A DNA stretch of 45,205 nt from Nostoc sp. TH1S01. GTDB taxonomy: Bacteria; Cyanobacteriota; Cyanobacteriia; Cyanobacteriales; Nostocaceae. The stretch covers positions 1 to 45,205 of the forward strand of contig JAGKSW010000077.1 in the NCBI GenBank assembly GCA_018993265.1, written 5' to 3'. Made by a program: the position numbers and the translations under genes. Positions 29,593 through 31,082 of the stretch are shown piece by piece (position 1 is the stretch's first letter; each line of letters begins with the position of its first letter). Below the pieces are notes generated by a model. That model was given only the letters and a program-made list of their open reading frames with translations. It ran no database searches and was not told where the DNA came from.

Positions 29593-29655
29593 GGTGCGTT
29601 ACGGCTAATTCTTATGCTTTCAAAAGCTCAAATCCTTTCATCGCCGTAACACACC
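29593..29655. mobile_element. Small inverted-repeat element (GGTGCGTTACGGC type)
   Basis: GGTGCGTTACGGC (29593-29605) and GCCGTAACACACC (29643-29655) form inverted ends matching at 12 of 13 positions across a 37-bp spacer. This end sequence is one that I recall as common in Nostoc-type intergenic DNA. It lies upstream of the RNA element and the trpS gene. Confidence 0.55.
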
Positions 29656-29712
29656 CAACTTTTTTGGAGAGAGATTGCCAACTTGCCACCTTTGACGCAT
29701 AAAAAGTCTATA

Positions 29713-30029
29713 ATGCCGTGTGACACGGCATCATAGGGTTCACTAACCCCGCTCTAAAAGTGCGAGGATTGTCTAAACCAATTTAGACAACGCAAGAAGT
29801 GAATACCGCATTGAGACACAGCTTGGTACACACTTCCAGATACTTCCCTAGTCTGGACTATCTGTAAGCCTGATTGGTGAGGCGTTGGATAAAGCCAAGA
29901 CATCTTAGCTGTGTTGCGGGAAGGGACTAAAACGAGTTTACTGGTTCTCGGCTTATCAGCATTAAAAACCAGTTCCCGCCAGGAAATGTAAAGCCATCCT
30001 CAAAGGACAGGGTTTCAAACCCATTTTTC
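29713..30029 (+). ncRNA. Stand-alone HEARO / IscB-type omega RNA
   Basis: A roughly 320-nt run has many perfect helices and no protein frame. Visible stems: 29713-29720 with 29724-29731 (8 bp); GGGTT/AACCC at 29736-29749; TTGTCTAAA/TTTAGACAA at 29769-29790; GAAGTG 29796-29801 with CACTTC 29831-29836; CCGCA 29806-29810 with TGCGG 29915-29919; ACACAGCT 29816-29823 with AGCTGTGT 29907-29914; CAGATA 29837-29842 with TATCTG 29859-29864; ACTGGTT 29940-29946 with AACCAGT 29967-29973. A GC hairpin and T-run close it (30010-30029). The conserved stretches match my memory of HEARO RNAs, the omega RNAs that guide the IscB nuclease. No iscB ORF follows: trpS begins 45 bp downstream. The 5' flank (up to about 29712) would be the guide. 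Identity is from memory, so an Rfam match is the test. Confidence 0.8.
30010..30029 (+). terminator. 3'-terminal hairpin of the RNA element
   Basis: GGGTTT and AAACCC around a single C, then ATTTTTCT, form a terminator-like hairpin with a T-run. It could end the RNA element's transcript or be its conserved 3' end. It lies 45 bp before the trpS ATG. Confidence 0.6.
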
Positions 30030-30074
30030 TGATGAATACGTGCATGAACATTTAGCAAGAACTAGAGTGAATTT

Positions 30075-31082
30075 ATGGGTAAGCAGCGTGTGCTGTCAGG
30101 AGTTCAACCAACTGGTAATTTGCACTTGGGTAACTACTTAGGCGCAATTCGCAACTGGGTAGAAATCCAAGACCAGTATGAAAATTTCTTTTGTGTAGTG
30201 GATTTACACGCGATTACTGTACCGCATAATCCAGCGTCTTTGGCGGCAGATACTTACACCATCGCCGCACTTTACCTGGCCTGTGGGATTGATTTAAACC
30301 ACTCCAGTATCTTTGTCCAGTCCCACGTTTCCGCACACAGTGAACTTGCTTGGCTGCTTAACTGCATCACTCCCCTAAACTGGCTACAAGACATGATTCA
30401 GTTTAAGGAAAAGGCTGTTAAACAAGGTGAAAACGTTAGCACAGGTTTGTTAATCTACCCAGTACTGATGGCGGCTGATATTTTGCTTTATCAAGCTGAT
30501 AAAGTACCAGTGGGTGAAGACCAAAAGCAACACATAGAACTGACAAGGGATATTGTCAATAGATTCAATCACCAATTTGCCAAGGATCAAGCAGTTTTGA
30601 AGTTACCAGATCCCTTGATTCGGAAAGATGGTGCAAGGGTGATGAGCTTGACAGATGGGACACGCAAAATGTCTAAATCTGACCCGTCAGAGTTAAGCCG
30701 GATTAATCTTTTAGATCCACCAGAGCAGATTGCTAATAAAATTAAGCGATGCAAAACTGATCCTGTACGGGGGTTAACTTTTGATGAGCCAGAACGCCCA
30801 GAGTGTAATAACTTATTGACGTTGTATATGCTGCTGTCTGGCAAGACTAAAGAAGCAGTAGCAGCAGAATGCCAAGATATGGGTTGGGGACAATTCAAGC
30901 CTTTATTGACAGAAACAACAATTAATGCTTTAAAACCAATCCAAGAAAAATATCAGGCAATTATGGATGACAAAGGTTATCTGGAGTCTGTGTTGCGTGA
31001 TGGCAGGGAAAAAGCACAAGCGATCGCTAATCAAACTTTAGCAGATGTGAAAGCAGCGTTAGGGTATTCTATGCCTGTGTAA
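30075..31082 (+). CDS. trpS: Tryptophan--tRNA ligase
   Basis: TrpRS charges tRNA-Trp. The 335-residue class I synthetase has the HIGH-type motif GNLHLGNYLG (HLGN at 17-20) and KMSKS at 198-202. Length and N-terminus (MGKQRVLSGVQPTGNLHLGN) are normal for bacteria. The RNA element above sits in its immediate upstream region, so its promoter either lies upstream of that element or in the 45 bp between them. Confidence 0.98.
   Translation: MGKQRVLSGVQPTGNLHLGNYLGAIRNWVEIQDQYENFFCVVDLHAITVPHNPASLAADTYTIAALYLACGIDLNHSSIFVQSHVSAHSELAWLLNCITPLNWLQDMIQFKEKAVKQGENVSTGLLIYPVLMAADILLYQADKVPVGEDQKQHIELTRDIVNRFNHQFAKDQAVLKLPDPLIRKDGARVMSLTDGTRKMSKSDPSELSRINLLDPPEQIANKIKRCKTDPVRGLTFDEPERPECNNLLTLYMLLSGKTKEAVAAECQDMGWGQFKPLLTETTINALKPIQEKYQAIMDDKGYLESVLRDGREKAQAIANQTLADVKAALGYSMPV

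Follow-up and report, generated by a model that had tools for sequence, protein, structure and literature searches.

What lies in front of trpS? In the 45,205-nt stretch of Nostoc sp. TH1S01 analysed here (the window), a 335-aa frame at 30075-31082 of the plus strand, whose name trpS is taken over from the first-pass annotation, is preceded by a long structured RNA stretch without a protein frame, which that annotation had delimited as one unit at 29690-30035. We confirm the structured stretch: the interval folds at -99.6 kcal/mol, as compared to a mean of -86.2 kcal/mol for shuffled sequences (z -2.3; 0 of 100 shuffles equal it), and contains no ORF of at least 60 aa. The proposed limits, however, do not stand. 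A search of 60 relatives returned the empty site in six congeners (G001, G004, G005, G006, G008, and G009), where the sequence left of 29739 abuts that right of 30031. The inserted element comprises 293 nt (29739-30031, plus strand; its ends carry a 1-nt G ambiguity) and lies directly 5′ of an ATGA at 30032-30035 (plus strand) and 43 nt 5′ of trpS, and 29690-29738 is host DNA that is also present in the empty relatives. As proposed earlier, the comparison of close strains exposed an empty site, the insertion ends, and a motif. The empty junction reads ...CATAGGG followed by ATGAATACG... (with one change in G008) and, since it already contains ATGA, this motif was present before insertion. trpS was recovered in 11 of 11 genomes of the genus, our strain included; in alignments, six of the ten congeners have the same trpS leader type, all six being empty, and the remaining four have a different leader, likewise without the element.

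Precise insertion, an empty site, the lack of a target duplication, and a fixed short motif are hallmarks of IS200/IS605-type elements, and all four are found here, the empty-site alignment containing no target duplication at the insertion junction. HEARO RNAs reportedly insert before ATGA or GTGA, which served us only as a lead. The insertion at trpS is probably young, given that the two nearest congeners, both devoid of the element, show 98% identity to our strain across the trpS 5′ region; the closest full-length copies among the 60 relatives are three in G039 (81–82% identical). At its 3′ side, the element terminates in a transposon end (29984-30031, plus strand) that recurs, in reverse orientation (ATGA/TCAT side), on a TnpB element of the same genome (L002, 1501-2835). 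TnpB elements of the IS200/IS605 group differ from ours in their nuclease and in the location of the guide RNA at the 3′ end of the element. As an end alone, the sequence was found in ten copies, six followed by ATGA and four not. It contains the terminator-like hairpin GGGTTTCAAACCC-ATTTTTCTGA at 30010-30022, in keeping with the terminator-like 3′ end annotated before, and a hairpin at 29994-30010 that is weakened here: on either strand, this ATGA-side hairpin folds worse in the window copy than in L005 or L002, and both changed positions read as G-T wobbles on the minus strand, where the scan still counts 7 pairs. Due to the weaker hairpin, the window copy may move poorly, and its present mobility is uncertain.

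Which RNA does the element specify? Along the plus strand, the fold begins with a guide-adaptor region at 29739-29803 (stem 29739-29744/29798-29803 and two inner hairpins), coinciding with the start of the HEARO consensus, and continues into a core and 3′ module at 29804-29973, corresponding to the 172 positions of R1, our own covariance model of the family. R1 was built on seven rows and scores the window copy at 193 bits, the window being one of these training rows; in the source alignment, the 3′ end of row L005 had been wrongly cut and misaligned. Within the seven rows, 29 cells show two-sided changes as compared to 8.8 in shuffles. We applied R1 to 54 loci without a nuclease gene alongside (solo copies; 52 distinct rows), over which 96.0% of 2265 cells pair and two-sided changes affect 31 of 44 pairs and 299 cells, against shuffle means of 19.1 and 80.6, respectively, and at most 12 pairs and 47 cells in slid versions. 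This alignment was fitted to R1, so that R1 stems are favoured, and both pseudoknot stems lie outside the model. The nexus pseudoknot, spanning 29845-29926 (29845-29849, UCCCU, with 29922-29926, AGGGA; plus strand), is paired in 98.8% of cells over the 52 rows, with two-sided changes at two pairs, and the extra 3′ stem in 98.5%; inner helix 9 has two pairs that form in most rows and another that is unpaired in 45 of 52. The element family thus has a covarying fold that includes the nexus pseudoknot of IsrB-type omega RNAs. Three solo RNAs (L048, L013, and L049) have extra hairpins of ~40–60 nt in loops, their core still matching.

The solo RNAs part from their isrB-linked relatives at the 3′ end. 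When linked to isrB, the last hairpin can be closed by a 5–7 nt pairing with the first isrB codons in 17 of 22 RNAs (about 4.3 expected from shuffles), which agrees with the terminal hairpin containing the Shine-Dalgarno sequence just before isrB, as stated in section 6 of PMC9581776. In solo copies, GCTGGTT/AACCAGC together with a small stem replace this closure, forming a pseudoknot. The corresponding module of the window copy (29933-29973, plus strand; helices 7–9 of the covariation analysis) consists of the pairings 29933-29936/29947-29950, 29940-29946/29967-29973, and, inside, 29951-29953/29958-29960. Its strict pattern is present in 28 of 38 solo copies versus 0 of 22 isrB-linked RNAs, the ten solo misses including variants of the GCTAGTT/AACTAGC type, one insertion, and one contig end. 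In the window copy the module reads ACTGGTT/AACCAGT, with the outer pair 29940/29973 being A-U here and G-C in most rows.

Gene-bearing relatives point to the nuclease family. In G007:C22 (same genus) and G056:C32, an RNA ~80% identical to the scaffold over 196–201 nt is followed by a gene for a protein of 364–365 aa and then by the same element end. Both proteins match Pfam RRXRR over the cut-off, and NCBIfam guided_IscB stays below its cut-off and extends only to about position 165 of 314. In six aligned proteins, little sequence separates what we take to be RuvC motifs II and III. DtIsrB (PDB 8dmb) aligns with residues 2-362 of the G007 protein (3e-40), and IscB chains match that protein within its first 177 residues. 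Because DtIsrB matches throughout and IscB N-terminally, the RuvC II–III stretch is short, and an HNH domain is missing, we classify the protein of the coding relatives, by sequence comparison, as IsrB, an HNH-less nickase. Given that these relatives encode IsrB, the RNA in front of trpS is assigned to the IsrB type, not the IscB type: a solo omega RNA on a non-autonomous IS200/IS605-type element. The first-pass annotation was right about a stand-alone omega RNA, there being no nuclease gene in this copy, and wrong about its IscB type. As far as described in PMC9581776, the omega RNA of DtIsrB resembles ours in scaffold length class, nexus pseudoknot, and 5′ guide, in a target-adjacent motif that ATGA fits (NTGA), and in the 3′ hairpin located at the isrB start in coding relatives. 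Unlike the DtIsrB system, the element lacks isrB, closes its 3′ hairpin by RNA-only sequence, and has an extra pseudoknot stem. Stand-alone omega RNAs working with IscB have been reported (PMC9581776, section 6, citing its reference 4); they, too, lie away from the nuclease gene, whereas ours is of the IsrB type, belongs to a recurrent solo class, and has its own 3′ fold. A literature search, in which the omega sign was unsearchable and subscription journals were mostly outside, returned no paper on solo IsrB-type RNAs.

What might this RNA target? The RNA of DtIsrB consists of a 20-nt guide and a 262-nt scaffold (PMC9581776, section 6), and the target-adjacent motif of IsrB is NTGA (PMC9581776). 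From this published geometry, the would-be guide is the 20 nt of host 5′ flank at 29719-29738 (plus strand), and its target the empty trpS allele with ATGA; at empty trpS sites, the ATGA of 30032-30035 fits NTGA on the 3′ side of the target. The notion of a guide set by the 5′ flank is therefore upheld, with the flank adjoining the scaffold as the predicted guide. Of the six empty congeners, five have exactly the predicted guide sequence and G008 departs from it by one change; the last 17 nt of the guide occur a single time without mismatch in the own genome; the other guide matches there, three with 3 mismatches, equal the level of a reversed-pattern control. A hairpin at 29708-29736 belongs to the host flank, outside the element; this dyad is kept in six congeners, looks terminator-like on the minus strand, and overlaps the predicted guide region. 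We considered the TATAAT at 29709-29714, kept in six congeners, as a promoter and dropped it: the scan gives no plus-strand promoter and its bases belong to the dyad with the appearance of a minus-strand terminator. Nor do we claim a start ~18 nt before the element.

A partner for the RNA would have to be encoded elsewhere. Of the two RRXRR matches in the own genome, one (C60) is a fragment and the other (C37) a full-length frame. The product of the latter matches DtIsrB at 3.8e-44, is 47–48% identical to the IsrB of congener G007, and retains the D, E, and H/D columns invariant in the six aligned proteins, which we presume to be the catalytic RuvC residues. It is apparently an intact, if divergent, IsrB, and its gene has its own omega RNA of another subtype (35.6 bits with R1). 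A nuclease encoded elsewhere may thus use the window RNA, with the C37 IsrB as candidate. PADLOC, run on two IsrB proteins, gave nothing at 0.01. At C60 (G000:C60; L039, 1492-1728), a 78-aa frame matches the start of RRXRR and appears to be the remnant of an IscB/IsrB-type gene.

Taken together, we consider it highly probable that a non-autonomous IS200/IS605-type element, made up of a complete IsrB-type omega RNA and a transposon end, has settled before ATGA in the trpS leader, and picture its workings as follows. A Y1 transposase acting in trans would have placed the element; we infer this because the genome encodes Y1 proteins (ten Y1_Tnp matches, whose link to the element is conjectural) and because the TnpB element has the same ATGA-side end. 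Transcription running in from the 5′ flank would produce the scaffold preceded by its guide (about 29719-29738). With this RNA, an IsrB acting in trans would nick the empty trpS allele at a guide match followed by ATGA, and nicking of the empty allele would favour keeping or recopying the element. The first-pass interpretation is, in this form, partly supported.

In the present host, the nicking step hangs on the divergent C37 IsrB, so the window copy may be silent now. Alternatively, our identification could be right and the copy a fossil that jumped once and is neither transcribed nor used. This scenario, compatible with the identity part of the preferred explanation, is a serious contender that we place somewhat short of probable: it would sit well with the weakened transposon-end hairpin, with the lack of a second such copy in the genome, and with the divergence of the host's only full-length IsrB, but less well with RNA helices that are formed in this very copy (on which the structure was drawn), with an outer pair that has changed on both sides where the 3′ module departs from the other rows, and with the absence from the two congeners whose trpS 5′ regions share 98% identity with ours, which makes the insertion probably young.

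As first annotated, the RNA would instead be HEARO sensu stricto, an IscB omega RNA proper that an IscB uses; we regard this as very unlikely. Rfam HEARO (RF02033) does match over the full length of its model (1-211), which speaks for the preferred explanation as well, placing the scaffold at 29739-29933 (plus strand), albeit at 38.8 bits (E 2.2e-6) and thus under the gathering score of 83; a search at the gathering threshold gave no match anywhere in the window, and the anticipated above-threshold hit did not materialise. Rfam HEARO under-scores this class, since even the isrB-linked homologue in G007 reaches just 49.6 bits; solo copy L120 scores 42.7, and L044 and L223 give no match at 0.01. 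An RF02033 search of the own genome returned no match, as did the controls, rendering it uninformative. Some congeners have genes for proteins of IscB size that match over the first ~170 residues, yet the coding relatives examined carry IsrB without HNH, and the iscB expected elsewhere in the genome was not recovered over the cut-off (11 weaker IscB matches). Hardly credible, finally, is the element as a cis-regulatory leader of trpS, a role that the first-pass annotation had raised and that its co-directional position 43 nt before the gene and its terminator-like hairpin might suggest: the insert is missing from all ten congeners (six leader-sharing ones with empty sites, four with a different leader) and its homologues precede unrelated genes, making a regulatory role in trpS expression unlikely.

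How widespread are such solo RNAs? Among 243 genomes of the order (11 candidates scored per genome), 93 have an R1 match and at least 12 have one of 144 bits or more, which defined solo in this census; with 11 candidates per genome, solo genomes may be missed. One genome (G188) has 11 solo copies that differ in their 5′ flanks and each precede ATGA, and ATGA lies directly 3′ of 36 of 38 solo copies, the other two being one without a recognisable end and one at a contig end. IsrB is found at 1e-60 in 75 of the 243 genomes, namely in 10 of 12 solo genomes versus 65 of 231 others (Fisher p 2e-4, own genome included and kinship uncorrected), with G039 and G203 as the two exceptions. Solo copies can thus occur in genomes that lack a close IsrB: at E 1e-3, neither G039 (three solo copies) nor G035 has an IsrB match, and G203 has one of 139 residues only. 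In named genomes, some of whose records are the same genomes as in our set, the module pattern occurs at 46 loci, 31 of them with a covariance-model match and all cyanobacterial by name, and we took the other 15 as chance; 30 of the 31 supported loci have no IsrB in the DNA examined around them. The plasmid search returned three records, of which one spans 80% or more of the query, and a Gloeothece verrucosa plasmid carries a copy. In viral contigs there are three loci, all with a covariance-model match and two of identical sequence. Microcystis phage Mic1 has a solo omega RNA (L223, 2500-2799) between gp18 and gp19, its 3′ neighbour being the ATGA start codon of gp19, and the record gives no IsrB match at 1e-5; IsrB together with its RNA is present in seven phage records, of the LMM01 and MaMV types. 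According to PMC11237433, an IsrB-like gene of Microcystis (by predicted structure) entered Mic1 at ATGA in the laboratory, taking along 207 bp of upstream and 59 bp of downstream sequence. The ATGA insertion and the co-moved ~200 bp upstream and 59 bp downstream are alike to our case, but that element carries the gene and the window element does not.

From the 38 solo copies, L137 and L150 were left out and L119 is without a left end; in 18 of the 35 copies with both ends, the ATG of ATGA opens a frame of at least 60 codons, as compared to 154 of 2636 control ATGA sites overall and 154 of 741 that are intergenic or at starts. Counting a sister-genome insertion (L121 = L139) once leaves 17 of 34 (p 1.5e-4). 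Scoring required ATGA at the right end, with L049 (solo) and L151 (unclear) uncounted, and the control sites came from the window and loci of at least 3 kb, minus three window-locus copies, these loci overlapping one another and stemming from the same searches. In an NCBIfam scan of 10 of the 18 frames, leuB, MiaB, ribosomal protein S16, and gloB were over the cut-off from near the first residues, a ClpP frame, cut by the locus end, passed a subfamily cut-off, three further frames matched families below cut-off, and two matched none at 1e-5. Solo copies thus lie at gene starts more often than control sites, an excess that survival bias can also give; the window copy, 43 nt before trpS, is not at a start codon.

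Could solo IsrB-type RNAs form an independent, selected class of trans-acting guide-RNA transposons? Tentatively, and with more doubt than conviction, one may picture that, after the loss of isrB, the 3′ hairpin was remade into a pseudoknot of RNA-only sequence and the elements spread through cyanobacteria, a plasmid, and a phage; docking at ATGA, often at gene starts, would turn the host leader into the guide and make the host transcript the precursor of the omega RNA, so that IsrB would be supplied with a directory of gene starts in hosts and phages. If true, with the fold kept by selection, guide-only RNAs would work in trans, apart from the nuclease, and represent a step towards split guide systems. 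PMC9581776 describes IsrB as the likely antecedent of IscB, from which Cas9 in turn apparently descends. Strain pairs with and without the insert at trpS provide a ready test case.

Some further observations concern other sequences. In Microcystis phage LMM01 (L224, 2395-2530) and in L226-L228, about three additional, tandem truncated copies of the omega RNA 5′ start directly precede the isrB omega RNA (four in L226); the units, GTCACTAACCCCG and variants spaced by ~28–38 nt, resemble an array of guide-adaptor units. In L119 and L158 (G083), one and the same sequence, resembling the 3′ end of a group II intron, takes the place of the usual RNA 5′ end. Finally, 29600-29661 of the window is a separate, dispersed MITE-like repeat, of which partial copies, mostly 75–89% identical, populate many genomes of the genus and family.
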